Source: a virus
Length of the DNA: 33,585 nucleotides
Reading direction: 5' to 3' (one strand)
IMG/VR virus record: IMGVR_UViG_3300025000_000291
Location: 1-33,585 of that record
In this document: in pieces, positions 1,856 to 19,236 of the stretch
Numbering within the stretch: position 1 is the stretch's first letter
Layout: each line of letters starts with the position of its first letter
The notes under the pieces: model-generated
Database searches by the model: none
Seen by the model: only the letters and a program-made list of their open reading frames with translations
Told to the model about the DNA's origin: nothing
Position numbers and translations under genes: made by a program

Positions 1856-4459
1856 ATGACAAAATACGAAGATGTAAAGCACATTACAACTGAAGAATAC
1901 TTTAATGGAAATCAATTCTCAATTGATGCCTTTGGTAAAAAATATACCGTACTTCCTGGAGAAACTTATGTACAGGCATTAAAGCGTGTTTGTGACTTTG
2001 TAGCCTCCGTCGAGACAACTGCTGAACTTCGAACTTACTGGTCAGAAAGGTGGTTTGATGAAATTTATAATGACTGGTGGCACCCTGCAGGATCAATTAT
2101 GCAAGGTGCTGGCAGCGGTAAAAAAATAAGTTTGAGTAATTGTACTCACATTTCTATGGGTGGTAATCATCCAGAAGAAGAGTGGGATAGTTTAGAAGCT
2201 ATCTATAAGAACACAAAATACGCTGTAGCAAAAACCGCTGCGTATCGTCAGGGGCTTGGTGTAGATTTTTCTAGACTTCGTCCAAAAGGCATGAAAGTTT
2301 TAAACTCTTCGAATGAAAGTACAGGCGCAATTCACTGGATGAAGTCTGTAGATGGTGTAGGATACGAAGTTGGGCAGAAGGGAAGAATACCAGCAATGCT
2401 GTTCTCTCTAAATGTAAGTCATCCTGATATAGAAGAATTTATTACAGTTAAATCCAGTTTTGGAACAATTCAGAATGCAAATATTTCTGTACAGTGCACA
2501 AACAAATTTTACAAGGCCGTAGAAGAGGATAAAGACTGGAAATTATCTTTTGAAATCCCTGCAATTAAACGTGGGGATAAAGTATATGTTGATGTTCATT
2601 CTATCGACATGGACTGTGAATTTGAACTAGATAACAATAAGAATAGACATTGGTATAAGATTGCAACCCATGATAGACTTGCCGAGAAATTTGAAAAAGT
2701 CGTAAAGGCAAAAACTATTTTAGAAATGATAGCTAAAGGTATGTTTAATTATGCAGAACCAGGCATTCAAAATATCGACATCGCTCGCAAATATTCTAAT
2801 AGTGATTATGTATATGATGCAAAAGATATTTACGACAGTCGAATAATCGGTACGAATGCGTGCAGTGAACAGTATCTTTCGAGAGACTCGCTATGTGTAC
2901 TGGCTTCAATTAATGTTGGACGCTTTAGTACAGACCTACACGACTATGAACCGCAACTAAAAGTAATAGGTTCATCTGTTAACCGTTTCCTAGACAACGT
3001 TAATGAGTGCGAACTTGTATATCAAACCTATGCAACTCCTCACCAAAAACTAGCGATTGAAAAGTTGCGTAGAACTGGTGCGGGTTCAACTAATTGGGAA
3101 GCTTGGCTTATTCATCAGAATTTAGCGTACGGTTCTCCTGAAGGAAATGCAGTTTCACAAGAATTTAATAAAACATATAATTACTATCTATATAAAAACT
3201 CGATTGAACTTGGGAAAGAGAAAGGGTCGTTTGGTTTATTCGTTCGCGAAAAATTTGAACAATCTCCTTTTATAAAACATATGATGAAGCAAGGGTTAGA
3301 ATTTACGCACATGCGAAATGTAACTTGCTCATCGATTGCTCCTACAGGTACTTTAAGTTTGATGTTTAGAGACTTGGTAATGTCATACGGAGTTGAACCT
3401 GGATTTGGTTTATACTATTGGAAACGTACAAGAATTTCTGGTAAGTATGAGTATTATTTCAATGTACCTTATATAATTAGAATGTTATTTAAAGAGCATG
3501 GTAAACCATTACCTATGGAATCGGATACTATAAAAGATACATGGGATGGCAAGTACGGCAGACCTATTGCTGAATTTATTATGGAGAATCTTCTCCCTCT
3601 AGGTATTGAATATAAAGATGCAACGCATATAGACCCACTAGAAAAATTGGAATTCATGTCTTGTCTTATGAAAGACTGTGATAGTTCTATTTCTGTAACA
3701 TTTATGTTACCAGAGACATCAAAATGGGAAGACACCTATGAGTTTATTCTACAAGCATATAAAAAAGAAGTTAAATCTATTGCAGCTTTTCCTGATAGAA
3801 AAATGTATGGAATTGTTTCTTATATGCCTTTTAAACCACTTGCTGTAAAACTTTTAGATGAAGGTGTAGAAATACATCCACAAAATTTTAGCACTGAAGA
3901 GCAAAAAGAATTAAACATCTACGACGCTAAGATAACAAACACAGCCGACGCACCTAAACGCCCTAAACGACTTCCTGCTGATGTATATTCAATTATCGTA
4001 GCAGGTACTAAGTTTATAGTAGCTGTAGGTATGCTAAACAACACTCCATATGAAATCTTCTGTGGGGAAATGAATGGGTTGAATTTTAAATTCAAAGAAC
4101 GTAAAGGCTATTTAGAAAAAATAAAAAGAGGTCACTACAAACTTGAGATAGGGGAAGACATAGAAATAGAGAACTTCTCAGAACACTTTAAAGAAGTAGA
4201 ACGAACCGTATTTAGAGTTGTATCTATGAGTTTAAGACATGGCATTTCAATAAAGTTCATAGTAGATCAATTACAAAAATCTACAAACAATTTAGCTTCA
4301 CTAACAGCTGCAGCTGCAAGAGTACTTAAAAAGTATATAAAAGACGGAGAAACTGCATCAGGACAAGTTTGTCCTTCCTGTGGTTCTACTGCTCTTATTT
4401 ATGCAGAAGGTTGCGTTACCTGTGCAGTTGCTGAGTGCGGATGGAGTAAATGTAGTTAA
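1856..4459 (+). CDS. nrdJ: Class II (adenosylcobalamin-dependent) ribonucleotide reductase
   Basis: Reduces ribonucleotides to deoxyribonucleotides using a B12-derived thiyl radical, so it needs no oxygen and no separate radical-generating subunit. Visible landmarks: the first redox cysteine in LSNCTHIS (C96), the active-site NACSEQ (N334, C336, E338), SIAPTGTLSL followed by YGVEPGFGLYYWKR in the barrel, and a C-terminal cysteine-rich tail (CPSCG at 839-843, then CVTCA and CGWSKCS) that resembles the reducing or zinc-ribbon tail of this class. Full length at 867 aa, no frameshift. B12 would have to come from the host. The leader has no Shine-Dalgarno sequence; TATAAATT lies about 25 bases upstream of the ATG. 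Confidence 0.93.
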   Translation: MTKYEDVKHITTEEYFNGNQFSIDAFGKKYTVLPGETYVQALKRVCDFVASVETTAELRTYWSERWFDEIYNDWWHPAGSIMQGAGSGKKISLSNCTHISMGGNHPEEEWDSLEAIYKNTKYAVAKTAAYRQGLGVDFSRLRPKGMKVLNSSNESTGAIHWMKSVDGVGYEVGQKGRIPAMLFSLNVSHPDIEEFITVKSSFGTIQNANISVQCTNKFYKAVEEDKDWKLSFEIPAIKRGDKVYVDVHSIDMDCEFELDNNKNRHWYKIATHDRLAEKFEKVVKAKTILEMIAKGMFNYAEPGIQNIDIARKYSNSDYVYDAKDIYDSRIIGTNACSEQYLSRDSLCVLASINVGRFSTDLHDYEPQLKVIGSSVNRFLDNVNECELVYQTYATPHQKLAIEKLRRTGAGSTNWEAWLIHQNLAYGSPEGNAVSQEFNKTYNYYLYKNSIELGKEKGSFGLFVREKFEQSPFIKHMMKQGLEFTHMRNVTCSSIAPTGTLSLMFRDLVMSYGVEPGFGLYYWKRTRISGKYEYYFNVPYIIRMLFKEHGKPLPMESDTIKDTWDGKYGRPIAEFIMENLLPLGIEYKDATHIDPLEKLEFMSCLMKDCDSSISVTFMLPETSKWEDTYEFILQAYKKEVKSIAAFPDRKMYGIVSYMPFKPLAVKLLDEGVEIHPQNFSTEEQKELNIYDAKITNTADAPKRPKRLPADVYSIIVAGTKFIVAVGMLNNTPYEIFCGEMNGLNFKFKERKGYLEKIKRGHYKLEIGEDIEIENFSEHFKEVERTVFRVVSMSLRHGISIKFIVDQLQKSTNNLASLTAAAARVLKKYIKDGETASGQVCPSCGSTALIYAEGCVTCAVAECGWSKCS

Positions 4460-4924: not shown

Positions 4925-5851
4925 ATGGAAAATAAAAAACCGCATCGCCAATCAGTTGATTTTAAAGAAATATGGAACATTCAAACAGACTTGAAAGTGG
5001 ATCAAGCAGTATGGGATGGAATCTTTCACAACTGGGCAAATCCTGCTAATTGTGCAGGTTACAAGAGAGTTACAGGCTGTGCAGTATGTGAACAACTACG
5101 AACTAATGGACATTATACTAACTCAAAAGGCATCGTACACGGTGTAGATGTTGCAATAGTTGGAGATGTGCATTCTAACTACGAAGGTTTGCATGCTGTA
5201 ATAAAAAATAATCCAAGCCTAACTGCATTAATATGCGTGGGAGATCTTGCACTTTGGGCTTCAGAAGATGAAGCAAGACATGACGTCAAAGCTTACGCAA
5301 AAACGTTAGATAACATTAAGAGTTTTATGGTAAATCCTAAACCTTTTGATATTCCTGTATATGTCGTAAAAGGTAATCACGATGACTACAAAAATATGTA
5401 CTCTTCTTGGTTTACTGATTTGAACATTCATTACGTGCAACAAGCAGAGGTTCTTACAATCAATGCGATAAAATTTGGATTTCTTGGTGGTGTGTATTCT
5501 TCAGTGCGTACGTTTAAAGATGCCTATACCTTCCAAGGACGCGAACATCGTTTCTATACAGTATCTGAGATAAAAGACTTGTCTACTAAAAAGTTTGATG
5601 TGTTAATTACACACCAGGCAGCTGAAAAGGTTTTACCTGACAATCTATTTATGAAAGATGAAGGTTCCAGGGAACTTCAAACGTTACTTGAGGTAACTAA
5701 GCCTGAATTTTATTTTCACGGACACCACCACAAAGAATACATGACCTTCTACAAAGATTCAGGAACCTTTGTATATGGACTAGGTAACTTTTCAAAAAAC
5801 CCTTTGACATACGTTGTTATGAATACTTTAACAAAAGAGGTAAAAATTTAA
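4925..5851 (+). CDS. Calcineurin-like metallophosphoesterase
   Basis: The five metal-binding motifs of this superfamily are in order: GDVH (D81, H83), VGDL (D107), GNHD (N151, H152), ITH (H230) and GHHH (H267). The enzyme therefore probably hydrolyses a phosphomonoester or diester with two metals; the substrate cannot be read from sequence. In phages such proteins have been tied to DNA end or RNA processing or nucleotide signalling. An unusual N-terminal extension of about 70 residues holds a small cysteine cluster (C43, C52, C55) that may bind metal. The ATG follows an A-rich leader without Shine-Dalgarno. The stop abuts the sigma factor start exactly. Confidence 0.88.
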   Translation: MENKKPHRQSVDFKEIWNIQTDLKVDQAVWDGIFHNWANPANCAGYKRVTGCAVCEQLRTNGHYTNSKGIVHGVDVAIVGDVHSNYEGLHAVIKNNPSLTALICVGDLALWASEDEARHDVKAYAKTLDNIKSFMVNPKPFDIPVYVVKGNHDDYKNMYSSWFTDLNIHYVQQAEVLTINAIKFGFLGGVYSSVRTFKDAYTFQGREHRFYTVSEIKDLSTKKFDVLITHQAAEKVLPDNLFMKDEGSRELQTLLEVTKPEFYFHGHHHKEYMTFYKDSGTFVYGLGNFSKNPLTYVVMNTLTKEVKI

Positions 5852-6649
5852 ATGTCACAAACAGATAGGTATCTTCGTATAATTCGAAAATACACACCTT
5901 TGACGAAAACAGAAGAACGTGAGCTTTTCAAGAAAGCCAAGGCTGGTGACCAAGCCGCATATGAAACCATAGTAAAGTCAAATCTTAGATTTGTCGTATC
6001 TGTGGCAAAGAACTATGTAGGTAAAGGTTTAGATATAGACGAGTTAATTCAAGAAGGTAATTATGGCCTCATAAAAGCTTATAATAAATTTGATCTTGAC
6101 CGTAACTGTAAGTTCATAACTTATGCAGTTTGGTGGATTCGTCAGTCCATTCTAACAGCTATACATGAAAATTCCAATATCGTTAGGCTACCTGTTAACA
6201 AGATAACGAACATAATGAAAACAGCCAAACTACGAAGTGAACTTGAACAAGAACTATCTAAAGCAATTTCACTCGACGAGTTAGCTGACTACATTGACAA
6301 TCCTGAAATAATAAATGACCTGCAGTATACGTCTAGCATGATCGATATAGATCAGCCACAGACCGATAATCTTAAGAGTCTCCATGAGGTTCTTACAGAC
6401 AACACGACGGAAGACGATGTAGACATTCTGAAAGACGAACTGTCTGATATTCTAAAAAACTTTCCACAACGTGAGAAAGATATATTGTATTTGTACTACG
6501 GTATAAACGAAATTCGCCCATATACTCTAAAAGAGATTGGGTACGATATGGGATTAACCAGAGAAAGAATACGTCAGATTAAAAAACAAGTCATTGAAAA
6601 ATTAAAAGAAAAAGGCCTCGCAGACCGTTTGCGAGACTATTTAAAATAA
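5852..6649 (+). CDS. Phage-encoded sigma-70 family factor, Bacteroidota-like
   Basis: Directs RNA polymerase to promoters, probably the late ones. At 265 aa it has region 1.2, region 2 (NLRFVVSVAKNYVGKGL, then DLDRNCKFITYAVWWIRQS), region 3 (NIVRLPVNKITNI, 109-121) and region 4 (FPQREKDILYLYYG; helix-turn-helix TLKEIGYDMGLTRERIRQI). Region 1.1 is absent. The 2.4 stretch YAVWWIRQSIL (91-101) is the form I know from Bacteroidota primary sigma factors; Escherichia coli has YATWWIRQAIT. A weak AGAGG lies 11 bases before the ATG, the best ribosome binding site in this arm. Such full-length factors suggest the phage redirects host polymerase. No anti-sigma gene is visible. Confidence 0.93.
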   Translation: MSQTDRYLRIIRKYTPLTKTEERELFKKAKAGDQAAYETIVKSNLRFVVSVAKNYVGKGLDIDELIQEGNYGLIKAYNKFDLDRNCKFITYAVWWIRQSILTAIHENSNIVRLPVNKITNIMKTAKLRSELEQELSKAISLDELADYIDNPEIINDLQYTSSMIDIDQPQTDNLKSLHEVLTDNTTEDDVDILKDELSDILKNFPQREKDILYLYYGINEIRPYTLKEIGYDMGLTRERIRQIKKQVIEKLKEKGLADRLRDYLK

Positions 6650-6663
6650 AATCAGTTTTATAC

Positions 6664-7821
6664 ATGATGCACTTCATAAATAAGCCAGGTGCCGAGTTTC
6701 AAAAAGCTCTAACCTGGCTTAATGAAGAACAGATATACGCAGTGGACACAGAGACAACAGGACTAGACCCTCACACCGATAAGGTACTCCTAATACAAAT
6801 AGGTAATGCCAGCGAGCAGTGGGTGTTTGATACTTATAGACTGCGTTCACAAATACAATTTGTTCTTTCCTACTTAACAAATGAAACAAAAGTAAAAGTA
6901 CTGCACAATGCCGCATTTGATTATAAAATGCTTCTAGGACATTACGGTATTCGACTAAATAATATTCGTTGTACTATGCTTGCCGAACAGTTATTAACTA
7001 AAGGTAAAGTAAATACTAACGTTGATGAAGATGGCAAACTTACCAAAACAAGAGTATCCGCAAGTCTTGCTGCTGTAGCAAAGAAATATAAAAATGTTGC
7101 TCTCGATAAAGAAGAACGTTCCACATTTGCGGAAATGCAGTGGGGAAACAAATTTACAAAGGAACAAATAGAATATGCAGGTTTAGATACCGCATATCTA
7201 ATTGACATATTAAAAGATCAGACAAAACTTCTACAAAGTAGAGGTATGGAAGATCTAGCTAAACTAGAATTTGCTGTAGTATCTGTGTTAGGTGATATGT
7301 CCTATAAGGGCATATTTCTCGACTCCTCGAAATGGCTACCACTCGAAAAAATTGCAATCGAAAAAAAGAATAAACTACTAGCAGAACTAAATACTCATTT
7401 TCAAGAGTTCATTGATGAGAATACAACTGAAGATCTATTTGGTCCAAAGGTATATCAGATTAACTATAACTCTCCCAAACAAACTTTACCTTTATTACGA
7501 AAAGCTACAGGGCTTGCCTTAAAAACTACAGATGGAAAATATCTAGAAGATTTTAAAAGTAAGTATCCAGTAATAGCTGCGCTCTTATTATATAAGCAAG
7601 CAGAGAAAAAGATAAGTACGTATGGAACTACATTCTTGGAAAATACTCATCCTACTACAAGGAGAATACATTCTAACTTTAAACAAATTTTTGCAGACAC
7701 AGGAAGATCTTCGTCAGAAACGCCCAACCTACAAAATTTGCCGCGGCAACAGGAGTACAGGACTCCATTCTGCGTAGAGGACCCAGATAATTACAGGATG
7801 ATCAGTGCTGATTTCTCGGGT
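6664..7821 (+). CDS. polA: DNA polymerase, family A, exon 1 (3'-5' exonuclease and part of polymerase domain)
   Basis: Replicative phage polymerase. This exon encodes residues 1-386 of a predicted 631-residue spliced protein. The N-terminal proofreading exonuclease has VDTETTGLDP (D28, E30), LHNAAFDYKML and YAGLDTAYLID. The polymerase domain begins with the SNFKQIFADTGRSSS segment and the exon stops inside motif A, at ISADFSG. Without splicing the frame runs five codons into the intron and stops. Splicing to 8748 restores DFSGQELRILAQ, a complete motif A, and keeps the frame (1158 bases, exactly 386 codons). No 5'-3' exonuclease domain is present, as in T7-type polymerases. No Shine-Dalgarno precedes the ATG. 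Confidence 0.93.
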
Positions 7822-8747
7822 AAAAGAAAATATGCATAATAGTTACACAAAACAACAAGTAAATGAAATATTAGATTTATTTAACAAAGGAAATACTCCA
7901 ACAGAAATAGCTGTACAAATGGGTACGTATAATACTACAATTCGTAGGATTCTACTATACAACAACAAAAAATTAAAAACAGTTTCTGAAGTGGCTACAA
8001 CTATTCCAGAAAACCCTTTTAAAAATATTGAGTTACCAGAGGTACAATACTGGTTGGGGTTACTCGCTACGGATGGCAACCTATCTACTAAAGGTTATAG
8101 ACTTAATTTGTCTTTACAAGAACAAGATAGATATATCTTAGAAGCACTTAAAACTTTTATGAAAAGTACTAACACCATATCAGAGTATACCAGTAGATTT
8201 AATACAAAAATTTATAGTTTTAATATAAAAAATAAAGAAGTACACAATTTTTTAAATTCTTTGGGCATTACGCCAGCTAAGTCAAAAACCCTTAAGTTAA
8301 ACATACCTTTAACATGGGATGCTATAAAAGGAATTATTGACGGAGACGGTTCGGTTAGAAAAACAGGTTTAATAGAGATTGCTACAGCTTCTGTAGACTT
8401 TGCTAAACAACTGATGTGTTTTTTTAAGGACAACAAAGTAAAGTGTACAATGTCTTCTTATAGGTGTAACAAACTCCACATAGTTCGTATTTCTAATTTT
8501 AAAGATTGTTATTATGTATATATGCAAATGTATAAGAATAATACAACATGTATGAAAAGAAAGTATGAACGTTTTGGCTCCCTAGCAAAGAAATTTGCTA
8601 GTGATAACGCCGCTAATTCGGGGAAACTTGTGGAACAATCCCGAGCTAGCAAGGAAGAAATTCCTGGGCAAGTGTAACGACTTTACACGGCGCACCTAAA
8701 AGTTTTATACTTATGGTGAAGAGAAAGTCTAGGTTAGCATATAACCG
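7822..8747 (+). ncRNA. Group I intron in the DNA polymerase gene
   Basis: Self-splicing intron of 926 bases. The upstream exon ends in GGGU and the intron ends in G, as group I rules require. Helices found by eye: internal guide GCUC at 8577-8580 pairing with GGGU; P2 8582-8589/8594-8601 with a GAAA loop; P3 8608-8612/8688-8692; P4 8617-8622/8640-8645; P5 8628-8631/8635-8638; P6a 8652-8656/8661-8665; P7 8679-8684/8724-8729; P8 8693-8696/8715-8718; P9 8732-8736/8742-8746. The core motifs CGGGGAA and ACAAUCCCG resemble the T4 td intron (IA2-like). The endonuclease gene fills the P1 loop and its 3' end also encodes P2 to P6. Confidence 0.93.
7832..8677 (+). CDS. Intron-encoded LAGLIDADG homing endonuclease
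   Basis: Cuts intron-less polymerase alleles so that the intron copies itself into them. Two LAGLIDADG helices are visible: YWLGLLATDG (about 73-82) and IKGIIDGDGSV (166-176), each ending in the metal-binding aspartate. Residues 1-45 look like a helix-turn-helix (QQVNEILDLFNKG, then TEIAVQMGTYNTTIRRIL), a common DNA-binding extension. I chose ATG 7832 rather than GTG 7805, because the latter lies in the polymerase exon. The last 30 or so codons double as group I core RNA, so the C-terminus is constrained by folding. It starts only ten bases after the 5' splice site. Confidence 0.92.
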   Translation: MHNSYTKQQVNEILDLFNKGNTPTEIAVQMGTYNTTIRRILLYNNKKLKTVSEVATTIPENPFKNIELPEVQYWLGLLATDGNLSTKGYRLNLSLQEQDRYILEALKTFMKSTNTISEYTSRFNTKIYSFNIKNKEVHNFLNSLGITPAKSKTLKLNIPLTWDAIKGIIDGDGSVRKTGLIEIATASVDFAKQLMCFFKDNKVKCTMSSYRCNKLHIVRISNFKDCYYVYMQMYKNNTTCMKRKYERFGSLAKKFASDNAANSGKLVEQSRASKEEIPGQV

Positions 8748-9485
8748 CAAGAATTAAGAATATTAGCACAACTAAGTCAAGAACCTGAGTTTATAAATGC
8801 AATTGCAACAGGCAAGGATTTGCACAGCTACTCCGCTTCTCTCCTTTTCGGATTACCTTATGAAAAATTCATGATGTATGATGTGAACGGAGTACAGCTG
8901 TTTGATGAAGCCCACGAACCTATAATCAATCCAGAGATGAAAAAGAAATACCGTAATCCGTGTAAATCTATAAGTTTTGGGATTTTATATGGTGCTGGTC
9001 CAGGTAAACTGGCTAGCCAACTAAAGATAAGTTTTGAAGAAGCAAAAGAACTGATGGATAAATATTTCAAAACATTCCCAAAAGTTAAAATGCTTATGGA
9101 TAAACTTGCAAGAGATGCACGTCAAAGTAAAATGGCAGTTTCGCCACTTGACGGACGTCAAATAGATTTATCTGCAATCGATTGGGAAGATAAAGGTTAT
9201 GTTGCTCACGCACTTAATCAAGCAAAGAATCTTCCATTCCAAGGTTGCGGAGCCAGTATAACAAAACTAGCACTTTATTATATTGACAAAAAATTAAAAG
9301 AAAATAATTATGATGCAGACATTGTCTGTGTAATCCATGATGAAATTTTGGTTGAATGTAATAAAGACCTCGCAGAGGAAATAAAAATGATAGTCGAAAC
9401 AGAAATGATTCGAGCATTTAATCACTACTGCCCAGATGTTAAAATGGCAGTTGTGGCAGAAATTGGAACTCATTGGATACACTAA
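8748..9485 (+). CDS. polA: DNA polymerase, family A, exon 2 (polymerase catalytic domain)
   Basis: Encodes the last 245 residues of the polymerase. It opens with QELRILAQLSQ, the second half of motif A (the catalytic Asp is in exon 1, the Glu and Arg here). Motif B reads RNPCKSISFGILYGAG, with Arg, Lys and Tyr-Gly in the expected spacing for binding incoming dNTP. Motif C is VIHDEILVE, with the catalytic Asp. The reading frame has no start codon of its own at the exon boundary and is continuous only after intron removal. The TAA overlaps the ATG of the next gene (TAATG), indicating coupled translation. Confidence 0.93.
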   Translation, partial: QELRILAQLSQEPEFINAIATGKDLHSYSASLLFGLPYEKFMMYDVNGVQLFDEAHEPIINPEMKKKYRNPCKSISFGILYGAGPGKLASQLKISFEEAKELMDKYFKTFPKVKMLMDKLARDARQSKMAVSPLDGRQIDLSAIDWEDKGYVAHALNQAKNLPFQGCGASITKLALYYIDKKLKENNYDADIVCVIHDEILVECNKDLAEEIKMIVETEMIRAFNHYCPDVKMAVVAEIGTHWIH

Positions 9486-9868
9486 TGGATATACACATAA
9501 CCAATATAGAGGTACAGCGGGACCTTGGACCTGTATATACTATGGGATCTCCTACTCCACAAACTTTTGCAAGAGGTTCTAAAAGAGTATCAATTAAAGG
9601 AGAACTACTCGGTTCCTATGAAAAGTTCAAAGAACTTTGTTTAGCGAATAGCAGTATACTTGCAATAGTTACAGATGACGGTACACTGCTTGGAGCGGAA
9701 GAAGCTAAGTTACTTACCTCCATGCTACAAGACATAAAAAAGCTGTTACCAGCGCAGCCTACATTAAGTGTGGTTGAAACTGGTAAACCTTTACTTAGCT
9801 ATATATTATCAGAGCTAACCGATATTACAAATGCCATTAAGCAACAAAATATTAGTAGCAATAGGTAA
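9485..9868 (+). CDS. Hypothetical protein, 127 aa (possible virion-like fold)
   Basis: The ATG at 9485 overlaps the polymerase stop in TAATG, the best-supported start. The N-terminal half (NIEVQRDLGPVYTMGSPTP, then FARGSKRVSIKGEL) has the look of a beta-rich domain found in some phage structural proteins, where a G-x-P-x-P-x-x-F-x-R-G-S-R/K run is followed by a strand. The C-terminal half is helical. This resemblance is weak and the gene sits in the replication module, so function stays open. It overlaps the dNMP kinase gene by 38 bases. Confidence 0.6.
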   Translation: MDIHITNIEVQRDLGPVYTMGSPTPQTFARGSKRVSIKGELLGSYEKFKELCLANSSILAIVTDDGTLLGAEEAKLLTSMLQDIKKLLPAQPTLSVVETGKPLLSYILSELTDITNAIKQQNISSNR

Positions 9869-10523
9869 CAAAGCCAGACATGGCAAAGATACCTTTGCAA
9901 ATTTATGGAAAGAGTTAGACCCCATAGATGTTTATATAACACATTGGGCTGACCCTTTGAAAGAAGAAGTTACAAACGTAGAAAGAAAACTACCCTTAGT
10001 GTATCGTACCAAAATTGACGGTAAACCTTATTATTCGTTGTTGCATACGAAAGTACCACACTATACTTATATTATAAAGACAAAGGAAGAAGTTCCATAT
10101 CTGCATAAAATATTTGAAGAACGTGGAATAGAAACTTATGCTGGAATGAATGATAAAGACTCTGAAATGTTACAGTTTTGGGGTACAGATTTTAGACGGG
10201 CGCAAGATACAAATTATTGGGTTAATATAATTTTAAAAGAAATTGAAGTTCGTCCAGAAAAGTATATTTTAATACCTGATACTAGATTTACAAATGAATA
10301 CAATGCAGTGAAAGATCGTGGCGGTGCTTACGTACAAATGCAAAGACTCAATGAGGATGGAAGTTTGTATTTAGACCCTATGCGGGACCCAAAGCATAAA
10401 TCTGAAATAGATTTGGATTGGGTAGTTGGAGACTTTGTTATTACAGCAGAAGGCGGAAACATGCAAATGCTTACTACACTTTCTCTAATGACAATAGATG
10501 GGATTAAAAAAGGCTACTTCTAG
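9831..10523 (+). CDS. Deoxynucleoside monophosphate kinase
   Basis: Phosphorylates dNMPs to dNDPs, feeding the dNTP pool from degraded host DNA. It has the P-loop GNKARHGKDT (12-21), then the segments LQFWGTDFRRAQDTNYWVN and IPDTRFTNEYNAVKDRGG that mark the T4 gene 1 type family (substrate lid and base-binding regions). Length (230 aa) is normal. ATG 9831 overlaps the previous gene; no Shine-Dalgarno sequence is evident. It is the last gene of the plus-strand module, followed four bases later by a strong terminator. Together with dUTPase and ribonucleotide reductase it makes a nearly complete nucleotide supply set. Confidence 0.9.
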   Translation: MPLSNKILVAIGNKARHGKDTFANLWKELDPIDVYITHWADPLKEEVTNVERKLPLVYRTKIDGKPYYSLLHTKVPHYTYIIKTKEEVPYLHKIFEERGIETYAGMNDKDSEMLQFWGTDFRRAQDTNYWVNIILKEIEVRPEKYILIPDTRFTNEYNAVKDRGGAYVQMQRLNEDGSLYLDPMRDPKHKSEIDLDWVVGDFVITAEGGNMQMLTTLSLMTIDGIKKGYF

Positions 10524-10574: not shown

Positions 10575-11330
10575 TTACTTTATTAGACTCCAGTCCATTG
10601 CTGAAACGGAAGATGCTCTAAAAGATACATTTTCTACTAGTACTGTTTGTTGAGATGCAACGCTAAAAGTGTGTGCTTGAATATAACAGTTCTCTAAATA
10701 AAATCCACCGTAGGGTTGATTTTCCATATCATACAAAACAAATCCTAGACCTGTAGGTCTGTTGAAAAAGCTTGATGATAAGTTAATAAAGAAGTAGCTA
10801 GGTGTGGGCGGAGTATCTGTATCTTGTTTAAAGATAACAGATCCATCATTGTTAGTGACTCCTCCTAAAGTGGTACCATCTCCTATTGCTCCATCTGGAG
10901 CCAAATCAGCAGGGTAGTCCCTTGCTGCTAATTTATCAATAGGAGACCAAGCTCCACCAGAAGGATTGATAAGAGCTCCATCAACTGTAGTACCTTTTAA
11001 GTACATTGCATACATTAAAGATGGACCATCAAACAAGATTCTAGCAATACCGCCAGAAACAACCGTTCTTCCTGGAACGAAAAATGGTTTTCTCGATCCG
11101 ACTTCGAACAACTGTTGAATTTGTTTTTGTTGCGAAACTTGTACATTTTGAACTAATCCAATTGGTACTAAATTAGCTGCAGCGTTTGCACTGTACTCAG
11201 CTGGACCAGAAAACATTACTGTACTTTCAGAAGATAAAAAATCTGAACCAAAAGTATTATTATTATTCTGTACAGACTCAGTCATGAATTTAGACTTCCA
11301 ATCTGTAACATTTTTTACGTTATAAGCCAT
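10575..11330 (-). CDS. Tail tube protein
   Basis: Forms the inner tube of the contractile tail. The protein is 251 aa with a beta-rich, Ser/Thr/Gly-rich sequence. It directly follows the sheath gene, the usual position for a tube gene. The features LFEVGSRKPFFVPGRT and ARILFDGPSLMYAMY, and a C-terminal FYLENCYIQAHTFSVASQ stretch, resemble tube proteins of jumbo and marine myoviruses; the call rests on size, order and this resemblance. A strong AGGAGG lies 11 bases before the ATG (11342-11347), in line with high expression. It is the last gene of the minus-strand operon before the terminator. It carries none of the repeated K-x-A motifs of the head proteins except one KLA. Confidence 0.8.
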   Translation of the reverse strand: MAYNVKNVTDWKSKFMTESVQNNNNTFGSDFLSSESTVMFSGPAEYSANAAANLVPIGLVQNVQVSQQKQIQQLFEVGSRKPFFVPGRTVVSGGIARILFDGPSLMYAMYLKGTTVDGALINPSGGAWSPIDKLAARDYPADLAPDGAIGDGTTLGGVTNNDGSVIFKQDTDTPPTPSYFFINLSSSFFNRPTGLGFVLYDMENQPYGGFYLENCYIQAHTFSVASQQTVLVENVSFRASSVSAMDWSLIK

Positions 11331-11348: not shown

Positions 11349-12968
11349 TTAGAATATTAAAGTTACTTTGATATAATTAACAGGGTACAAAACTTTTATG
11401 CTAAGATCAACATTAATCGTATCAGGAGAAACATCATCTTGTTTAACATTAATAATTTTCATATCCTCTATATGCCCTTCACGTACTAAGAATCTAGCAG
11501 AGCCATTAAGAATGGTTTCGACAAGTTTCAAGAACGCTGGGGTAATGTTGTATCTACCGATATAAGGACTAAGTCCATTACGGACAAATTTAGCTGAGTA
11601 GTCAAGAGCTTTAGTAATGCTCAACTCACGTTTAGCAACTGATGTAACATCTGTTGACATTTGGTGTCTACAAGAGATTGCACCTGTTTTGTTTTTTTGA
11701 ACGTATATCCAGTTTCCACCAGACGCTATAGTGTTCAATTGAGTTTCACTAAAGATATCCTGTGATCCAAAAGTTTCTGCTAATCCTGTACCAGGTACGT
11801 TAGTAAGTGGTTGAGATACTGGCGTTCCAATAACCTGCCCAACAGCCTGAGCTGTGAAGTAATATCCAGGAACAGGCGCAAGAACACTAACAAGTCCGTC
11901 AGAACCTGCCCAACTTGAGTTTACTAGCGTCGCCCATAGAGTTTCAGTAATTAAAGTTCCAGCTTTATATTTAACACCATCAATAGTTTTATCAGAAACA
12001 AATTTAGCTACCAAGTTGTTTGTATCAAACGGCATATCAGTTGTTGCCAAGAAGCTTGCAGCAATCCAAGAAGGTTTAATAGTCGAGATATGTCTTGTTT
12101 CTACGACATAGCCCGCATCAGGATTTACTTGGAAAACTCGTTTTTCTTGGGTGGCAATAGCATTATCCCTAAGAGTGGACGCTAGCGTATCTTTAGCGGT
12201 TGAGTCTAAAGTTTTTGGGTCCGCTCCATACGTTACATAATTATTTACGAATGCAATACGTTCTTTTTTCTCTGCAGCAGCTGAATAGGTTGCGCAGTGA
12301 GTTTTCAAAGCAGATGCGGTCGCCTTGTGTGTCAATGGTGCGATTGCATAAACTTCTTCTAATCCAAGATAGTCATTAATAGATGTATCAAAACTATCGG
12401 CAACATTTAATTTTAATGCCTTGATAGCAGATGCTGAGTTTGACATTGCGATAGCAGCTCCGTAAGCAAGAGGATTCCAAGAAACAATTTCACCAAGAGT
12501 TTCTTTAATATCGTCTGTACTTACAATAGATTTAAAGCCTTTACTTATAACAGTATCTAAAGCTCGGTATCCTACTCGTACCTGATAGTTTCCTGTTACT
12601 GTAGTAGCACCACTAAGAATAGTAACTTGCGTTCCAGCTACGTTTGCTGCAACAGTATAATCTGTACCATAAAGTAAGTGTTTAACAAGCCCGATAGCAT
12701 TGCCACTTATTCCAAGTACATCCACAACAACCAATTCATCATCATTGCCTGTGCTTACATCATAATAATCTGGATTGTTACCGCTAAGGGTAAAAACCAA
12801 ATCATCTGTTCCTACTAAAGATGTTCCTATAACAGAACTATCAAGCGTTGGGTCAATCCACTTGTAACTGTGACCTACTACGCAAGCCTCTAAGTCAGGA
12901 GTAATAAGTACAGGTGAATTACTTTTTTGTTCTTGTCTTACTTCAACACCTGGTTTTACATATCCCAT
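11349..12968 (-). CDS. Contractile tail sheath protein
   Basis: Builds the contractile sheath that drives the tube through the envelope. At 539 aa it begins MGYVKPGVEVRQ, a typical sheath N-terminus, followed by a variable domain. It ends with a conserved C-terminal region (SPYIGRYNITPAFLKLVET, then DVSPDTINVDLSIKVLYPVNYIKVTLIF split over the last 40 residues). The C-terminal arm would mediate sheath subunit linkage. A GGAGG site sits nine bases before the ATG. The tube gene follows after 18 bases. This gene proves that the phage is a myovirus. No frameshift is visible. Confidence 0.94.
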   Translation of the reverse strand: MGYVKPGVEVRQEQKSNSPVLITPDLEACVVGHSYKWIDPTLDSSVIGTSLVGTDDLVFTLSGNNPDYYDVSTGNDDELVVVDVLGISGNAIGLVKHLLYGTDYTVAANVAGTQVTILSGATTVTGNYQVRVGYRALDTVISKGFKSIVSTDDIKETLGEIVSWNPLAYGAAIAMSNSASAIKALKLNVADSFDTSINDYLGLEEVYAIAPLTHKATASALKTHCATYSAAAEKKERIAFVNNYVTYGADPKTLDSTAKDTLASTLRDNAIATQEKRVFQVNPDAGYVVETRHISTIKPSWIAASFLATTDMPFDTNNLVAKFVSDKTIDGVKYKAGTLITETLWATLVNSSWAGSDGLVSVLAPVPGYYFTAQAVGQVIGTPVSQPLTNVPGTGLAETFGSQDIFSETQLNTIASGGNWIYVQKNKTGAISCRHQMSTDVTSVAKRELSITKALDYSAKFVRNGLSPYIGRYNITPAFLKLVETILNGSARFLVREGHIEDMKIINVKQDDVSPDTINVDLSIKVLYPVNYIKVTLIF

Positions 12969-13025: not shown

Positions 13026-13861
13026 TATTGTTCTTCGTTCTTTTTCTTTTTGAGCGCTCCGACAAGATCTCCTGCCATCCGCGCTTCCCAGCCACCTGGG
13101 ATCATGTTCGTTGCTCCGTCTTTAGCAGATTCCTGAATGGAGTCTTTATTTACACCACCAAATACAAATGGCATTGCCATCATTGGGAGAGTTGCAACTG
13201 ATAGGGCTAGTGCACGAGAACCTAATCGTTTGTGTGCAATAGCTTTGTTTCCCGCATTAAACCATTCTCGCGTTCCTGCTTCTCCTGTATTTACAGGTGC
13301 ATTCTTAATTAAGCGATCTCTCATAATACCTTGTCCTTTTAAATATGCCTTGTCATTTTTCCAAACAAGCTCTGGCTTTGGACCTTTTCCAAACCATGTT
13401 TTAACGGTAGGATCTACTGTTTTATACTGAGTGTTTCGCATCTCTTGCATTAACACTTTGCCTGTAGATTTGAAACCTTTTTTCATTTCGCCGATCATAT
13501 GAACTTTTTCGCCCATTTGACTTTGTAACCATCCGTTGTTATTTTTAACAAACTTGCCTCGATTTGCTAAAAACGTAGAGTCGTTCTTTAAAAAGTCTTT
13601 TCCACCTTTTAAGTATTCTGGATGTTTAAAAGCTTTCGTAAAGTCTCGCAAAGCATTTAAACCTGCTTCACCGCCTTTACCATACTCAGCTAAACCAGTC
13701 TCAGCGTATCTAAGAAGTTTGCCACTAGAACCAAAGTGTTTAGCAGCAAATCCGCCAACAGCTTTCATTGCTTTAAAGATAGTAGGAAGCATCTGTGCAT
13801 TCTTTTCCAACTCGTCGTAAAACCCATTCATTATTATTACATTCTTTTCTTGTTCAGTCAT
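13025..13861 (-). CDS. Unknown head/neck-region protein with GFYDELEKNA motif, 278 aa
   Basis: No family recognised. Rich in Lys and Gly with many short helices. Near the N-terminus it carries GFYDELEKNAQ (residues 12-22), one of the F-x-D-E-L-x-K-x-A motifs repeated in head proteins here. A hydrophobic stretch ALALSVATLPMMAMPFVFGG near residues 225-244 could be a membrane or buried helix. The C-terminus is KKKKNEEQ, highly charged. ATG 13861 overlaps the previous stop; a start at 13831 (MNGFYDEL) is possible and would put the motif at the very N-terminus. Position between neck and sheath genes suggests a virion protein, perhaps internal or ejected, but that is inference. Confidence 0.7.
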   Translation of the reverse strand: MTEQEKNVIIMNGFYDELEKNAQMLPTIFKAMKAVGGFAAKHFGSSGKLLRYAETGLAEYGKGGEAGLNALRDFTKAFKHPEYLKGGKDFLKNDSTFLANRGKFVKNNNGWLQSQMGEKVHMIGEMKKGFKSTGKVLMQEMRNTQYKTVDPTVKTWFGKGPKPELVWKNDKAYLKGQGIMRDRLIKNAPVNTGEAGTREWFNAGNKAIAHKRLGSRALALSVATLPMMAMPFVFGGVNKDSIQESAKDGATNMIPGGWEARMAGDLVGALKKKKNEEQ

Positions 13862-14727
13862 TATTCAATCTCTGTATAAAGTTCATCATCGTTGTTGATA
13901 ATCATCTTTGCGCTAAGAACGTAATAGCCCGAAATAGCAGCACCATTTGGAAGCTCGTATATCAAAGGATCTGCCGTTGTATTTAAAGCCACCCCTGTAT
14001 GAGATTCTAAAGTTATTGCGTCAGTATAGTCCAGTATAACTGTATCAGTAGGGGCAACTCTAAATTTAATAGCAGTCCCGTTGTTAACAACAGTGTAATC
14101 ATGATTTTCAAAAATTTCTGTCTCTCCGACATATGCATAGGAGTTATAATTCTTTTCATCCCGTATAATATGTATCTGTTGAAGAAACCCTAGGGATACT
14201 TGAACGCCTGACAATTCAATGTCGGAATTAGCACGAACAATCTGTTCTTGTGAAATAGATAAATTATTAATTTGTCTAATACCAGCACTTCTTAGTTCGT
14301 TTTTAAATCCTGTTAAGTTCTTAAAAAGTTTGTCTGCAAGTATTTCTGCTTGTACTCCACTTTTGCTAATAGCATTAAAGACTACATATCCTCTTAAAAG
14401 GTCTGTGTACGCTTTCACATTTGAAGGGTCACTAATAGTAGAATCATACGCAGCCAGATTACTAAATCCCTTACCATTGTAATTTACAATAGCATTGGTA
14501 GCATCTTGTCCTTTTACCAAGTATGTCCAGCTAAGATCGCCGCGTTGTAATACTATACTTGGTCTTAAAACAGCTACTCCTAAATCTATAGCGTGTCTAT
14601 CAGCAATAATTATTTTTGTTTTTTGTACATCGGCATCCCATGTAAATACAGGATCTATAGAAAATAAAGCCTGTACAAAATTCAAAAAAATATATTTTAC
14701 GTTTAAAATAACATTGTTGTTTATCAT
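13861..14727 (-). CDS. Probable neck or tail-completion protein
   Basis: 288 aa, beta-rich. The N-terminal segment (FVQALFSIDPVFTWDADVQ, then KTKIIIADRHAIDLGVAVLRPSIVLQRG) resembles proteins at the head-tail joint of myoviruses whose first domain handles the tail end and whose second domain is a beta-sandwich. I recognise the pattern but not a specific family. It sits between the capsid and sheath genes, as neck genes do. The start overlaps the previous gene's end by four bases, with a weak AGAGA site upstream. No membrane segment or K-x-A motif is evident, in contrast with its downstream neighbour. Confidence 0.6.
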   Translation of the reverse strand: MINNNVILNVKYIFLNFVQALFSIDPVFTWDADVQKTKIIIADRHAIDLGVAVLRPSIVLQRGDLSWTYLVKGQDATNAIVNYNGKGFSNLAAYDSTISDPSNVKAYTDLLRGYVVFNAISKSGVQAEILADKLFKNLTGFKNELRSAGIRQINNLSISQEQIVRANSDIELSGVQVSLGFLQQIHIIRDEKNYNSYAYVGETEIFENHDYTVVNNGTAIKFRVAPTDTVILDYTDAITLESHTGVALNTTADPLIYELPNGAAISGYYVLSAKMIINNDDELYTEIE

Positions 14728-14930
14728 AAATCGATCTCTCTATCTTGGAAAAAATCAGACACGTCTACACGTTCTTGTAGATCATTAGCACTGTCATTCT
14801 CCAAAGCAGAGTAATCCACCAGGACACCTCTGTCTGCAGCGTCGCTCAAAATAGTAGCCTTGGCGTCTTGTTTTAGGGACAAGCTGGTCTGATAGTCAAT
14901 CGTTAAATTATCAATTTGTGATAGTTTCAT
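14724..14930 (-). CDS. Small hypothetical protein with promoter at its start codon, 68 aa
   Basis: Acidic, helical protein (SLSLKQDAKATILSDAADRG, ending in VSDFFQDREIDL). No family recognised. The single Met at 14930 is the only sensible start. It has no Shine-Dalgarno sequence: the -10 element TATATT of a strong promoter ends five bases before the ATG, so the transcript would begin at or next to the start codon (leaderless). It is first in a transcription unit with neck, sheath and tube genes. It overlaps the next gene by four bases, so its translation may be coupled to the neck protein. Confidence 0.65.
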   Translation of the reverse strand: MKLSQIDNLTIDYQTSLSLKQDAKATILSDAADRGVLVDYSALENDSANDLQERVDVSDFFQDREIDL

Positions 14931-14935
14931 AGTTT

Positions 14936-14964
14936 AATATATGTATTTTCAATGGATTAGTCAA
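14936..14964 (-). promoter_or_regulatory. Sigma-70-type promoter, neck/sheath/tube unit
   Basis: TTGACT (14964-14959), 17-base spacer, TATATT (14941-14936), followed by AAACT and the ATG. It lies in the 62-base gap between two genes. It also fits the Bacteroidota frame TTG-N20-TAnnTT. The predicted start site falls on or beside the ATG. Confidence 0.8.
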
Positions 14965-14992
14965 ATTTTTCGTATGAAAATGCTGCTCTATT

Positions 14993-15793
14993 TTATAGAG
15001 GTTGCCCCTTGTATACAACAGTCTGTAGAGTTCCGTTTAGATCTCGAAGAGTTTGTAGGGTATCGCCCGCTAGAGATAAACGGAGAATTATGGACGTATA
15101 CGTTAACAAATAAAAAATAACCTCATTAAAATTCTTAGTATCCTCTGACAATCGGTAAAATGCCAGAGTATCTATATCATTTAACAAGAAGTGGATCCTA
15201 TCTTGTTGTAAAAGTTTATAGCGTGTTATAACAATCTCTGGAATTCCGATCTCTCTCCAAGTGGTTTCGTAATCCTCTATAATTTTAAGTATTAGCAATC
15301 TGGCTTTGGTTCTAAAATCAGCGCTATCTAAAAAATCTACATTTATGAAACTTCTTAATGCAGTTTCGTACGCAAATATCTGAACCTGTATCATATCTTT
15401 AAATAACTGCGTACGCCCTGAAGTTCCTAAATTAAAGTTTTTTAGGTCTGCCAGCTGAAGTTCCTTAATAATACCAAATATAGGGTGAGTGGTGTTATCA
15501 TATGCAATGTCATTATTAAGCTTACTTTTTCCCTTTTGATCATAATATGTTTTTACTACAAACGAAACTATACCCCCGAGTGCTGTTAAAATGCCCTCCC
15601 AGTTAACTGGACTTTGTTCCTTACTAGATTGTCTAGTCGTAGTCAAAGTGTCAGACACATAAGTGGTGAGGGGTAAGTTTTTTATTTGACGCTCAGAAGA
15701 ATTACGCACATAGCTAGATGTGGCCAATGTAGCTCCTATAACGAACATTATTCCAAAAATTATGTTTAAAACTATTGATGTCTTCTTTTCCAT
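14993..15793 (-). CDS. Membrane-associated hypothetical protein, 266 aa
   Basis: Two hydrophobic segments are visible near the N-terminus: IVLNIIFGIMFVIGATLAT (about 7-25) and ILTALGGIVSFVVKTYY. The rest is soluble and helical, with several aromatic and Leu-rich stretches (IEDYETTWREIGIPEIVI, then FYLLTYTSIILRLSLAGDTL). I recognise no family. It sits among neck genes of the late operon, so a membrane or inner-membrane-contact role during infection is conceivable. It starts 14 bases after the preceding gene with a weak GGTAGAT leader. A promoter follows its stop codon. Confidence 0.65.
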   Translation of the reverse strand: MEKKTSIVLNIIFGIMFVIGATLATSSYVRNSSERQIKNLPLTTYVSDTLTTTRQSSKEQSPVNWEGILTALGGIVSFVVKTYYDQKGKSKLNNDIAYDNTTHPIFGIIKELQLADLKNFNLGTSGRTQLFKDMIQVQIFAYETALRSFINVDFLDSADFRTKARLLILKIIEDYETTWREIGIPEIVITRYKLLQQDRIHFLLNDIDTLAFYRLSEDTKNFNEVIFYLLTYTSIILRLSLAGDTLQTLRDLNGTLQTVVYKGQPL

Positions 15794-15806
15794 TATCTAC
15801 CGTAGG

Positions 15807-16580
15807 TTAATCATTAATAGGAATAGAGTACACTTTGTCCTCATTGGCTACTTGAGCTAGTTGCACCTGCTGCTCAATGATATAACCAAGTTTTTTTAGG
15901 TACCTAATCTGTATAACTACCCAACGTTTTCCTTCATCATCCACTACAACATCTCTTGGGGAAAGTAGAGGATAGTTTAAAGTAAACAACATTGAGTCAC
16001 TTGGTTTCCACTCTCCAAACATTAGAATTTGATTATATTTTGGAGAAGCGTTAACCATGCCTTTGAAAACGATTGGAGTAAAATAACCATCTACCCAACC
16101 TGTACCGTAACAAACACTGCAGTTTGGATCAGTACATCTAAACAATGTAGCATCCCAACAACGTGTACAATGAGTGCCCCAAGTTCGTTTCTTTAATAGT
16201 ACAAAAGGTCTTGCAGTAAATCTAGTTAAAGCCAGAGTTTTTCTGCGTAGCACCTCTTTAATCACATAGTCTGATGGAGCACTTTTAACGTATGCAGGGT
16301 CTGCAGTTAATAGTGCGCCGCTTTGTATCTTTAATTTGTAGTACCACACACGATCATTAATGCGAGTAATTGTAGAATCCTGAAAATCTACGTCTGCAGA
16401 TTGTCCAGAAGCAATACAAACATAATCCTGTAAACTGTCGCTAATACCAGAACTTTCCGAACGATATACATCTATCATAGTACCATTGGGTACTTCTGAC
16501 TCCGCTGTAAACGTCCACTGTAGCAAGTTGTGAAAATAATTATTAACTATACTAAAGGTAGCTAACTCGATCATTACCAT
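15807..16580 (-). CDS. Structural protein with FN3-like domain and zinc-ribbon motif
   Basis: 257 aa. The N-terminal 100 residues look like a fibronectin type III-like beta domain (LLQWTFTAESEVPNGTMIDV, ending in WYYKLKI). The middle has a cysteine cluster: CTRCWD, then CTDPNCSVCYGTGW, a four- or five-Cys knuckle that likely binds zinc. The final part is beta-rich (SDSMLFTLNYPLLSPRDVVV). This C-x2-C plus C-x-GTG arrangement is known from head-tail connector proteins of large phages, which fits the position after the capsid gene. Overlaps the previous gene by seven bases; a weak TAGGT lies before the ATG. Exact role is uncertain. Confidence 0.68.
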   Translation of the reverse strand: MVMIELATFSIVNNYFHNLLQWTFTAESEVPNGTMIDVYRSESSGISDSLQDYVCIASGQSADVDFQDSTITRINDRVWYYKLKIQSGALLTADPAYVKSAPSDYVIKEVLRRKTLALTRFTARPFVLLKKRTWGTHCTRCWDATLFRCTDPNCSVCYGTGWVDGYFTPIVFKGMVNASPKYNQILMFGEWKPSDSMLFTLNYPLLSPRDVVVDDEGKRWVVIQIRYLKKLGYIIEQQVQLAQVANEDKVYSIPIND

Positions 16581-17065
16581 TTATACCTACTTGCTTGTGA
16601 ATACTCAGATGGGGCCTCTCCGTATGCTGCATCAGTGTTTCCTTTAGTATTCCAATTTCTAACTGAATTAAAATAGGAGGAAACTAGCACATTAAAGTAA
16701 TTAACATAACGTCCGTATTTATCGTGGTCTTGAACAGTGATTCCGCCTGAGTCTTGGTAGGTCAAAGTATTACGTGCAGAGATGATTCCTTTCTTAGTTA
16801 GGATTCGTAAAGTAGTTCCTAGAAAAAAAGTAGATAGGTCTGGAATGTCTGTGAATTCTACAAAATTTGGATCGAATACCAGCATGTTATTAAGTTCGTT
16901 CATAGTCATCAATAATGCTCTGTATAATTCTAAATCTGTACTTTCTTGCACTTCCTCCAATGTATTCAGTTCTACATTATCGCCAAGTTCCCCACGAAAT
17001 AGATCAACAACAGGCTGATCGCCTGCGGGGACTGCGGTCTGTAATAGTTTTTCTAGTATCGTCAT
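16574..17065 (-). CDS. Probable head-completion/neck protein, 163 aa
   Basis: Helical N-terminus (MTILEKLLQTAVP, then LEEVQESTDLELYRALLMTMNEL), beta-like middle, Tyr/Ser-rich tail. I recognise no family. It is the first gene after a terminator and promoter pair behind the capsid gene, so expression is set independently of the capsid. A good AAAGGAG site lies before the ATG. Position suggests a connector or completion protein, a role usually held by small helical proteins next to the capsid gene, but the sequence itself does not prove it. Confidence 0.65.
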   Translation of the reverse strand: MTILEKLLQTAVPAGDQPVVDLFRGELGDNVELNTLEEVQESTDLELYRALLMTMNELNNMLVFDPNFVEFTDIPDLSTFFLGTTLRILTKKGIISARNTLTYQDSGGITVQDHDKYGRYVNYFNVLVSSYFNSVRNWNTKGNTDAAYGEAPSEYSQASRYKW

Positions 17066-17097
17066 TTGGGTAACTCCTTTGCATAAAATATCATCTT

Positions 17098-17126
17098 AAT
17101 ATAAGGATTAGTTGAATAATAGTCAA
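17098..17126 (-). promoter_or_regulatory. Sigma-70-type promoter, neck gene unit
   Basis: TTGACT (17126-17121), 17-base spacer, TATATT (17103-17098), followed by AAG. It lies between the capsid terminator and the 163-aa gene. Here a leader with an AAAGGAG site follows, unlike the two ATG-adjacent promoters. Confidence 0.85.
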
Positions 17127-17131
17127 GAAAC

Positions 17132-17163
17132 AAAAAAGGCCAAGCGTGTGCCTGGCCTTTAAA
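17132..17163 (-). terminator. Rho-independent terminator after capsid gene
   Basis: On the minus strand, AAAGGCCA and TGGCCTTT (17135-17142 and 17153-17160 on the plus strand) pair around a ten-base loop, followed by a run of six Ts. It starts 20 bases after the capsid stop and would limit read-through into neck genes. Confidence 0.88.
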
Positions 17164-17182
17164 GTACTGTTAAGTATGTACC

Positions 17183-18097: not shown

Positions 18098-18106
18098 TAT
18101 TTCTTA

Positions 18107-18114
18107 ACCTCCTT
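18107..18114 (-). promoter_or_regulatory. Perfect Shine-Dalgarno site of capsid gene
   Basis: AAGGAGGT, nine bases before the capsid ATG and overlapping the end of the preceding gene. Strongest site found here. Confidence 0.9.
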
Positions 18115-18538
18115 ATGCTAATACGAATTCAATCGCGTTAAATGATTTGCTTAAGTACTTCTCAGTATACTGAGCTTTTGTACAATAAGCTACAACTACG
18201 CCAGCACCAGCTGTCGAAGCGGATAATTTACCAGTAGCATCTACATAGAGCGGAGCTCCAACTGCAGGGGTACCAACGTATTGATCTGTTACGCCTTTTA
18301 ATTTTCCGTATATAACAGTAACCTTTCCAGTTGCTGCGATATCAGGAGAAAATCCAGCGGTTAGATCTCTGTTTGACTCTGACCAGATTGGGAATGCCAT
18401 GTTGCCAGCTGTAGGTTTTTTAACGCCTGCGCCGTCCATTTCAACAAAGGTTCCTGTTTGACCAGAGAGTAAGATCCAAGCACTAGCGTCTAGATCGAAT
18501 CTAGAGACTAGATTAAGTGAACTAAGAATTTGAAGCAT
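18113..18538 (-). CDS. Probable head decoration or stabilisation protein
   Basis: 141 aa, Gly/Ala/Thr-rich and beta-like, with the run VGTPAVGAPLYVDATGKLSA and a C-terminal YLSKSFNAIEFVLA. Such sequences are typical of small trimeric proteins that cap or cement the capsid lattice. It sits immediately before the capsid gene (15-base gap), the usual place. GGAGGA lies nine or so bases before the ATG, predicting high expression. No K-x-A motif of the head series is obvious. The decoration call is by resemblance and position, not a definite family match. Confidence 0.65.
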   Translation of the reverse strand: MLQILSSLNLVSRFDLDASAWILLSGQTGTFVEMDGAGVKKPTAGNMAFPIWSESNRDLTAGFSPDIAATGKVTVIYGKLKGVTDQYVGTPAVGAPLYVDATGKLSASTAGAGVVVAYCTKAQYTEKYLSKSFNAIEFVLA

Positions 18539-18560
18539 TTTGCTTATCCTCCGTTATTTT

Positions 18561-18893: not shown

Positions 18894-18906
18894 TGTTTGT
18901 TTAAAT

Positions 18907-19218: not shown

Positions 19219-19236
19219 TGTGATACTTACCTCCAA

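Follow-up and report, generated by a model that had tools for sequence, protein, structure and literature searches.

The window analysed here, 33,585 nucleotides of viral DNA, encodes a primary-type sigma-70 family factor of FCB descent, part of the gene core of a myovirus lineage, which with a probability of roughly 0.6 is made early and directs the host core RNA polymerase to a late class of promoters (L) in front of the virion genes. The sigma would be made along with the replication genes from early-class (E) promoters (GGTATAAGAA), bind the host RNA polymerase core and take it to L promoters (TTGACN, 17 bases, TATATT); these would drive transcription of the virion genes, which lie on the opposite strand. 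Late translation may be tuned too, through strong Shine-Dalgarno sites on the high-copy virion genes and through a ribosomal protein bS21 without Tyr54 encoded in the same block.

The sigma gene is an open reading frame of 265 amino acids at 5852-6649 on the plus strand, whose translation includes CKFITYAVWWIRQSILTAIHENSNIVRLPVNKI; its regions 2.3-3.0, read off the translation, are KFITYAVWWIRQSILTAIHENSNIVRLPVNKI (6100-6198, plus strand; approximate coordinates computed by hand). The protein matches Pfam Sigma70_r2 (3.3e-19) and Sigma70_r4 (6e-15), falls just below the cut-off of 22 bits for Sigma70_r1_2 (21.4 bits, 2.5e-4), and matches PHROG 351 (phrog_351, RNA polymerase sigma factor; 1.8e-61). 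Its alignment with solved SigA/RpoD chains covers regions 1.2 to 4.2 and begins at residue 6, within region 1.2, indicating that region 1.1 is missing. The gene noted by the sequence-only reading is thus real, carries both stretches that reading had quoted (YAVWWIRQSIL and IVRLPVNKI), and indeed lacks region 1.1.

The same reading had taken these stretches for the Bacteroidota form of the protein. A mixed sigma alignment was run against named bacterial genomes and gave at least 593 stretches, 586 of them relatives, which we ranked by similarity to the window sigma; the counts of cell sigmas given here refer to the best 80 of at least 586. Among these 80, YAVWW is present in all 50 labelled Bacteroidota loci, so that part of the claim stands, but the motif is shared by other FCB phyla: Ignavibacteriota (2 loci), Chlorobiota (2), Fidelibacterota (3) and Balneolota (1), as well as Gemmatimonadota (8, mostly with QAIL and RVPLN) and Latescibacterota (1, with WWVRQ). 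Seven of the eight Bacillota in the 80 have YATWWIRQAIT, and the remaining one has no motif match. YAVWW is therefore a mark of the whole FCB group (Bacteroidota, Ignavibacteria, Chlorobi and Fidelibacterota, with Gemmatimonadota as a variant). Two loci, labelled Bifidobacterium breve (L092) and Polynucleobacter (L106), are typical Bacteroidota RpoD genes and probably come from mislabelled bins.

The phage protein has the YAVWWIRQ(S/A)IL and R(L/V)PLN form of the FCB primary sigma without region 1.1, and resembles that factor in its region 2.4/3.0 sequence, in its probable extent from region 1.2 to 4.2 and in length (265 against a median of 287 amino acids for Bacteroidota RpoD among the best 80). 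The missing region 1.1 had been read as a loss of autoinhibition in the phage. This was not borne out, since the median number of residues ahead of the matched part is only 18 for the Bacteroidota RpoD proteins sampled here; because Bacteroidota housekeeping sigmas also lack region 1.1, its absence is ancestral and not a phage adaptation. The phage factor differs from the cellular one in being at most 45% identical to complete-length Bacteroidota matches among the best 80, in lacking the MRQLKI N-terminus, in forming its own clade and in being fixed beside a phage PolA.

Phylogeny, the check proposed with the sequence-only reading, was run on rows chosen by hand, 82 in a quick tree and 48 in a careful one. 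In both trees the window sigma falls among sigmas of phages and no others. In the 48-row tree the eight sigmas of the phage family form a clade at 100/100; FCB cell sigmas, the family and other phage sigmas together form a clade at 97/100, which puts the gene on the FCB side by tree as well as by motif; and the FCB cell sigmas split off at 97/94 with the phage clade excluded and beside them. No branching of the window sigma inside the cellular FCB sigmas was found in this tree. Since no sampled cell sigma falls within this fully supported phage clade, which stands outside them all, and the gene keeps a fixed place beside PolA, the sigma is, as far as trees and gene order can tell, an old gene of the phage line, of FCB-type descent.

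The opposite view, that the gene was captured lately from a Bacteroidota host and so names that host, draws on the FCB motif and on the best cell matches, mostly Bacteroidota, at 41-46% identity. Over the best 80 as a whole, most are Bacteroidota at 38-45%, with Ignavibacteria at 46%, with Fidelibacterota, Chlorobi, Gemmatimonadota and others interspersed, and with Bacillota last at 37-39%. Cell matches, however, reach 46% at the most in this sample, whereas the family sigmas are 47-54% identical to the window copy, the closest viral one (L011) being 54% identical. With the phage clade outside all sampled FCB cell sigmas and synteny with PolA fixed (15 of 15), we consider recent capture very improbable. 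When viral contigs were scanned with the sigma as a single protein, no close relatives were found; the sigma alignment used as query did find some. Some larger relatives have, besides, a divergent sigma-like protein (NTHV...QNIGHIPEPR) as a second one, which matches sigma region 3 weakly, at G005:48446-49168, G006:155114-155845, G728:59412-60137 and G730:11297-12016. The idea that these are second full sigmas was weakened by their divergence (a stem of 9.88 changes per column) and by the weakness of that match.

Terminase, capsid, sheath and replication proteins tie the window to five viral loci (L002, L009-L011 and L014), and a capsid profile search returned 69 viral loci, including the contigs of L011-L014. 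The family sample used below consists of the window and the full contigs of 24 relatives, 25 in all. Because they have tail sheath and capsid matches, these relatives are best described as myoviruses, and by their proteins they form one large myovirus family. In all 15 contigs that show PolA, the sigma reading frame lies directly ahead of it on the same strand. The nearest cultured relatives by capsid, at 32% identity, are Salmonella phage Arash and Vibrio phages D69, D181 and D148; Arash differs in encoding an RNA polymerase beta subunit and in having no Shine-Dalgarno split of the kind described below. In-frame TGA codons, mostly at tryptophan columns, occur in family genes on the contigs of L009, L010, L012 and L014 and likewise in G716, G719, G726, G729, G730, G731 and G738, and UGA seems to be read as tryptophan in about half of the 25 contigs. 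No UCA tRNA turned up in the contigs checked. The L012 contig (G005) has 26 tRNA genes, one of them with a CUA anticodon and hence a possible amber suppressor. The window itself has no in-frame TGA, with 106 TGG codons and 4 TGA stops.

The plus strand of the window holds the early arm, with genes for a RecU-like resolvase (687-1157; Pfam RecU, 1.1e-29), a dUTPase (1391-1834; Pfam, 6.5e-24), the ribonucleotide reductase large subunit (1856-4459; Pfam, 1.1e-66), a metallophosphoesterase directly upstream of the sigma gene (4925-5851; Pfam Metallophos, 1.4e-13), DNA polymerase A in two parts and, at the end of the arm, a deoxynucleoside monophosphate kinase (9831-10523; PHROG 139, 1.4e-24). The first part of the polymerase (6664-7839, exon read to 7821) contains the 3'-5' exonuclease and the start of the polymerase domain, and the second (8748-9485, with a putative exon start) includes the mechanical reading frame 8820-9485, which matches PHROG 17 (DNA polymerase; 3.3e-43). 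A 926-base insert at 7822-8747, around which the exons join in frame, splits the gene at polymerase motif A (DFSG | QELR). The insert contains a homing-type endonuclease reading frame with LAGLIDADG (7805-8677; LAGLIDADG_3, 4.7e-6) and a sequence reminiscent of a group I intron P7 core; against Rfam it gave no intron family at the gathering threshold, nor at E up to 5. In the L012 contig a comparable 3' end is seen at the matching position.

The minus strand carries the late genes: the terminase large subunit (TerL; 23118-24683; PHROG 675, 4.4e-67) and bS21 (24673-24855, 60 amino acids; PF01165, 5.5e-16), both without a Shine-Dalgarno site; the major head protein (17183-18097; PHROG 2522, 1.5e-10) with a strong one (AAGGAGGT); the tail sheath (11349-12968; PHROG 2839, 9.9e-11) with GGAGG; and a putative tail tube (10575-11330) with a strong AGGAGG, which matched no PHROG family and is named from its place beside the sheath only. 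The window also encodes a DUF192 protein (31027-31323), a protein with a weak R2K ATP-grasp match (27056-28849) and a 5'-nucleotidase-like gene (32935-33585).

Two classes of motif, which we infer to be promoters, follow this division. Three exact copies of TTGACT-N17-TATATT are present in the window where 0.01 would be expected, each of them ahead of late genes and on the minus strand: at 23100-23128 (before 22111-23094), at 17098-17126 (after the major capsid gene, from which it is separated by a terminator-like hairpin of 11 pairs at 17135-17160, minus strand) and at 14936-14964 (before 14724-14930). A further putative L promoter with one mismatch, TTGACT-N17-TAAATT, lies at the head of the late arm (32709-32737, minus strand), and 2 bases from it, on the plus strand and divergent, is a putative E promoter motif, TTTGGTATAAGAA (32740-32752). 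Since the two sites stand back to back, both arms of the genome would start from one spot.

The E word, GGTATAAGAA, came from a count of short words upstream of early-strand genes (GTATAAG 31 times, against 0 on the reverse strand), and the class has no visible -35 box. In 19 representatives of the family the early strand, assigned from gene content, has 103 E sites and 7 L sites, and the late strand 2 E sites and 48 L sites. When two giant mixed-strand contigs are set aside, the 17 left show E sites at 62:0 for replication versus virion strand, a split counted on the same data in which the class was discovered, and L sites (TTGACN-N17-TATATT) at 34:1 for virion versus replication strand. L sites total 68 against 11.8 in shuffles, and of those just upstream of late-strand starts 42 of 45 keep the 17-base spacing exactly. 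In fresh capsid loci unused in motif finding (28 of 47 kept, 19 near-copies dropped), the L class was found 24 times on the capsid strand and never on the opposite one; the E word had only 3 sites there, 0 on the capsid strand and 3 on the opposite. L sites also exceed shuffles in some other sigma-bearing phages (13 versus 2.2 in L017, 5 versus 0.8 in L020 and 3 versus 0.6 in L069), and in the more distantly related L017 the E class is present as well. A literature search, covering work other than preprints, found no paper on these E and L classes.

Because the two classes are split by strand, a role of the sigma as an early-to-late switch, as the sequence-only reading had proposed, is likely: the split and its recurrence for L in fresh loci fit that proposal, with the phage sigma as the putative L-class factor. 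Being close to the general sigma-70 consensus, TTGACN-N17-TATATT could also be read by a host sigma. On that account the host housekeeping sigma would read the L class, and the phage sigma would read the E class as a replication-gene (middle) factor that sustains its own operon. The E class, with no -35 box, is unlike known host promoters, and it was found 0 times in the upstream regions of five host pieces (39, 32, 26, 20 and 24 regions), as this account would have it. Unless the phage packages its sigma, however, E sites have to be read at a time when there is no phage sigma yet, and the L class is likewise absent, on the forward strand, from the same upstream regions, which come from candidate hosts. 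We regard this account as unlikely, though worth weighing. The second sigma-like protein of some family members could be the L-class factor instead. Under our preferred assignment, in which the phage sigma reads the L class, the E arm would be transcribed before the L arm.

The second hexamer of the L promoter at 23100-23128 ends 5 nucleotides before the start codon of 22111-23094, and across 12 representatives, this gene and its homologues have the hexamer end 4-9 bases before the start codon, a spacing that suggests a leaderless transcript. In this promoter and its homologues a GGAG-type core lies inside the promoter spacer.

The two arms also differ in translation signals. With gene starts taken from a simple caller that has no Shine-Dalgarno input, a Shine-Dalgarno core precedes 18 of 30 minus-strand genes in the window versus 1 of 11 plus-strand genes (the reading frames starting at 17, 7805, 8820 and 9473 not being counted as early genes), and that one is the sigma gene. 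In the family, after 6 of the 25 contigs were dropped as near-copies, six virion genes, grouped after the gene-by-gene table had been seen, have sites in 82 of 87 cases against 11.4 in shuffles, and early replication genes in 6 of 56 against 2.2. The remaining rows for the 19 representatives are 2/8 for sigma (the split sigma frames of G007 and G730 scored too low to enter this row), 43/112 for other late genes and 4/39 for terminase, bS21 and protease together; all late genes together give 129/238. Gene by gene, bS21 has sites in 0 of 13 cases and TerL in 1 of 32. In the fresh loci, 27 of 28 capsid genes have a core.

The split quite plausibly, and in our judgement somewhat probably, mirrors a host that marks only its highly expressed genes, with no special role for bS21. 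The sites mark genes for products required in the highest copy numbers, and the host pieces vary widely in their use, from Chlorobi (27/67 and 4/35) and Fidelibacterota (11/22, 6/17 and 2/10) to Ignavibacteria (5/68) and Flavobacteriia (2/49). Against this, the early genes, at 6/56, are below even partial users such as the Chlorobi genome, and a Salmonella phage with a homologous capsid has no split (43/58 and 23/29). Seven other sigma-bearing phages (L015, L016, L020, L027, L054, L069 and L071) have Shine-Dalgarno cores before 2-6% of their genes, roughly as many as in shuffles, and Bacteroidota host pieces are low in the same way.

The bS21 gene adjoins that of TerL on the strand of the structural genes; PF01165 was found in 12 of 27 capsid-family records searched, and the window protein had no match among cultured phages. 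Aligned with the F. johnsoniae ribosome (7jil), the window bS21 ends at the position of Tyr54 and has a lysine there; in L011 and G715 a tyrosine stands one position later, as the next-to-last residue. Sampled Bacteroidota bS21 have a tyrosine at this anti-Shine-Dalgarno clamp position, and those of Chlorobi, Ignavibacteria and Fidelibacterota, like the window protein, do not. The window protein scores best with Ignavibacteria (135) and Fidelibacterota (134), against 123 with Cytophagia.

According to the portion of McNutt et al. available to us, F. johnsoniae bS21 lacking codons 43-64 or carrying Y54A favours mRNAs with strong Shine-Dalgarno sites (PMC9976891). A Bacteroidia host that hides its anti-Shine-Dalgarno might thus have it freed late in infection by a phage bS21 without Tyr54, to the advantage of virion genes with Shine-Dalgarno sites. 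The near absence of sites from bS21 and TerL themselves is as expected if these are made before the change. However, Tyr54 is missing from bS21 in other FCB classes too, and the window copy scores best with Ignavibacteria; TAnnTTTG is not enriched in the family; and the Bacteroidia-like bS21 phages L020 and L054 keep the tyrosine and have no Shine-Dalgarno cores above shuffles. This mechanism is accordingly doubtful, and equally so the two-level reprogramming it would imply, in which the FCB sigma opens the L class and a Tyr54-less bS21 frees a hidden anti-Shine-Dalgarno, so that virion mRNAs are favoured over host and early ones. The broader idea that phage bS21 generally accompanies Shine-Dalgarno sites was rejected, given L020 and L054.

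These two resemble the Bacteroidetes phages of Chen et al. (2022), who, in the sections available, describe phage bS21 as expressed late and each of the 61 phage proteins as having an aromatic residue; nowhere do those sections use the word sigma (PMC9723584). As described there, these phages are like ours in having bS21 near terminase, capsid and protease genes. They differ in having an aromatic residue at position 54, which the window bS21 lacks, and in genomes of about 300 kb with bS21 on the strand opposite to the structural genes, whereas here it is on the same strand and the virion genes carry Shine-Dalgarno sites (PMC9723584).

The promoter form of Bacteroidota is TTTG/TAnnTTTG. TAnnTTTG was not enriched upstream of family genes, and the Flavobacteriia piece gave 12 versus 5 in the same count. 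On account of this, of the partial use of Shine-Dalgarno sites (as in Chlorobi and Fidelibacterota) and of the type of bS21, comparison of the sequences tentatively points to a host in the FCB group but in another class than Bacteroidia. The Bacteroidota host suggested by the sequence-only reading is therefore not supported if the class Bacteroidia is meant. CRISPR spacers, which that reading had also proposed to consult, gave no convincing match for 13586-33585 of the window against 245, 149 and 244 genomes. The DNA of this part, compared with the same sets of genomes (the first two listings overlap), gave only short chance-level matches apart from 19429-19656. This stretch of one late gene repeatedly gives 68-79% matches to the DNA of many genomes of Fidelibacterota and the Ignavibacteria class, and is probably compositional coding sequence. 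Of 245 genomes from the phylum to which the Fidelibacterota locus belongs, 0 matched the capsid profile, and the profile was likewise found in 0 of 395 and 0 of 395 genomes drawn from the phyla of the Ignavibacteria and Flavobacteriia loci; the last two listings are not independent, because the genome set puts both in one phylum and entries are shared.

Phage sigma factors that redirect the host polymerase are known from T4 (gp55) and SPO1 (gp28 and gp34). With these and with group 2 jumbo phages, as far as the available part of the source describes them (PMC7824862), the window sigma would share the function of opening the phage's own promoter class. It differs in being a near-complete primary-type FCB sigma rather than a minimal one; and of the two arms of its genome, one goes with a -35/-10 class whose spacing is fixed at 17 bases, the other with a -10-like class. 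Control by a phage sigma is thus of a known kind, and its coupling to translation signals here is unusual. That bS21 alters mRNA choice has already been proposed in print, in the parts of these papers available to us without a sequence signal in the mRNAs (PMC9723584, PMC9976891), and such an effect of a phage bS21 could be tested naturally here, where the Shine-Dalgarno split goes with a bS21 that lacks Tyr54. If our reading of the sigma is true, this lineage would make early and late promoter sequences readable for the phages of a bacterial group that is hard to culture, and the function of a phage sigma would become directly testable with one sigma and two templates.
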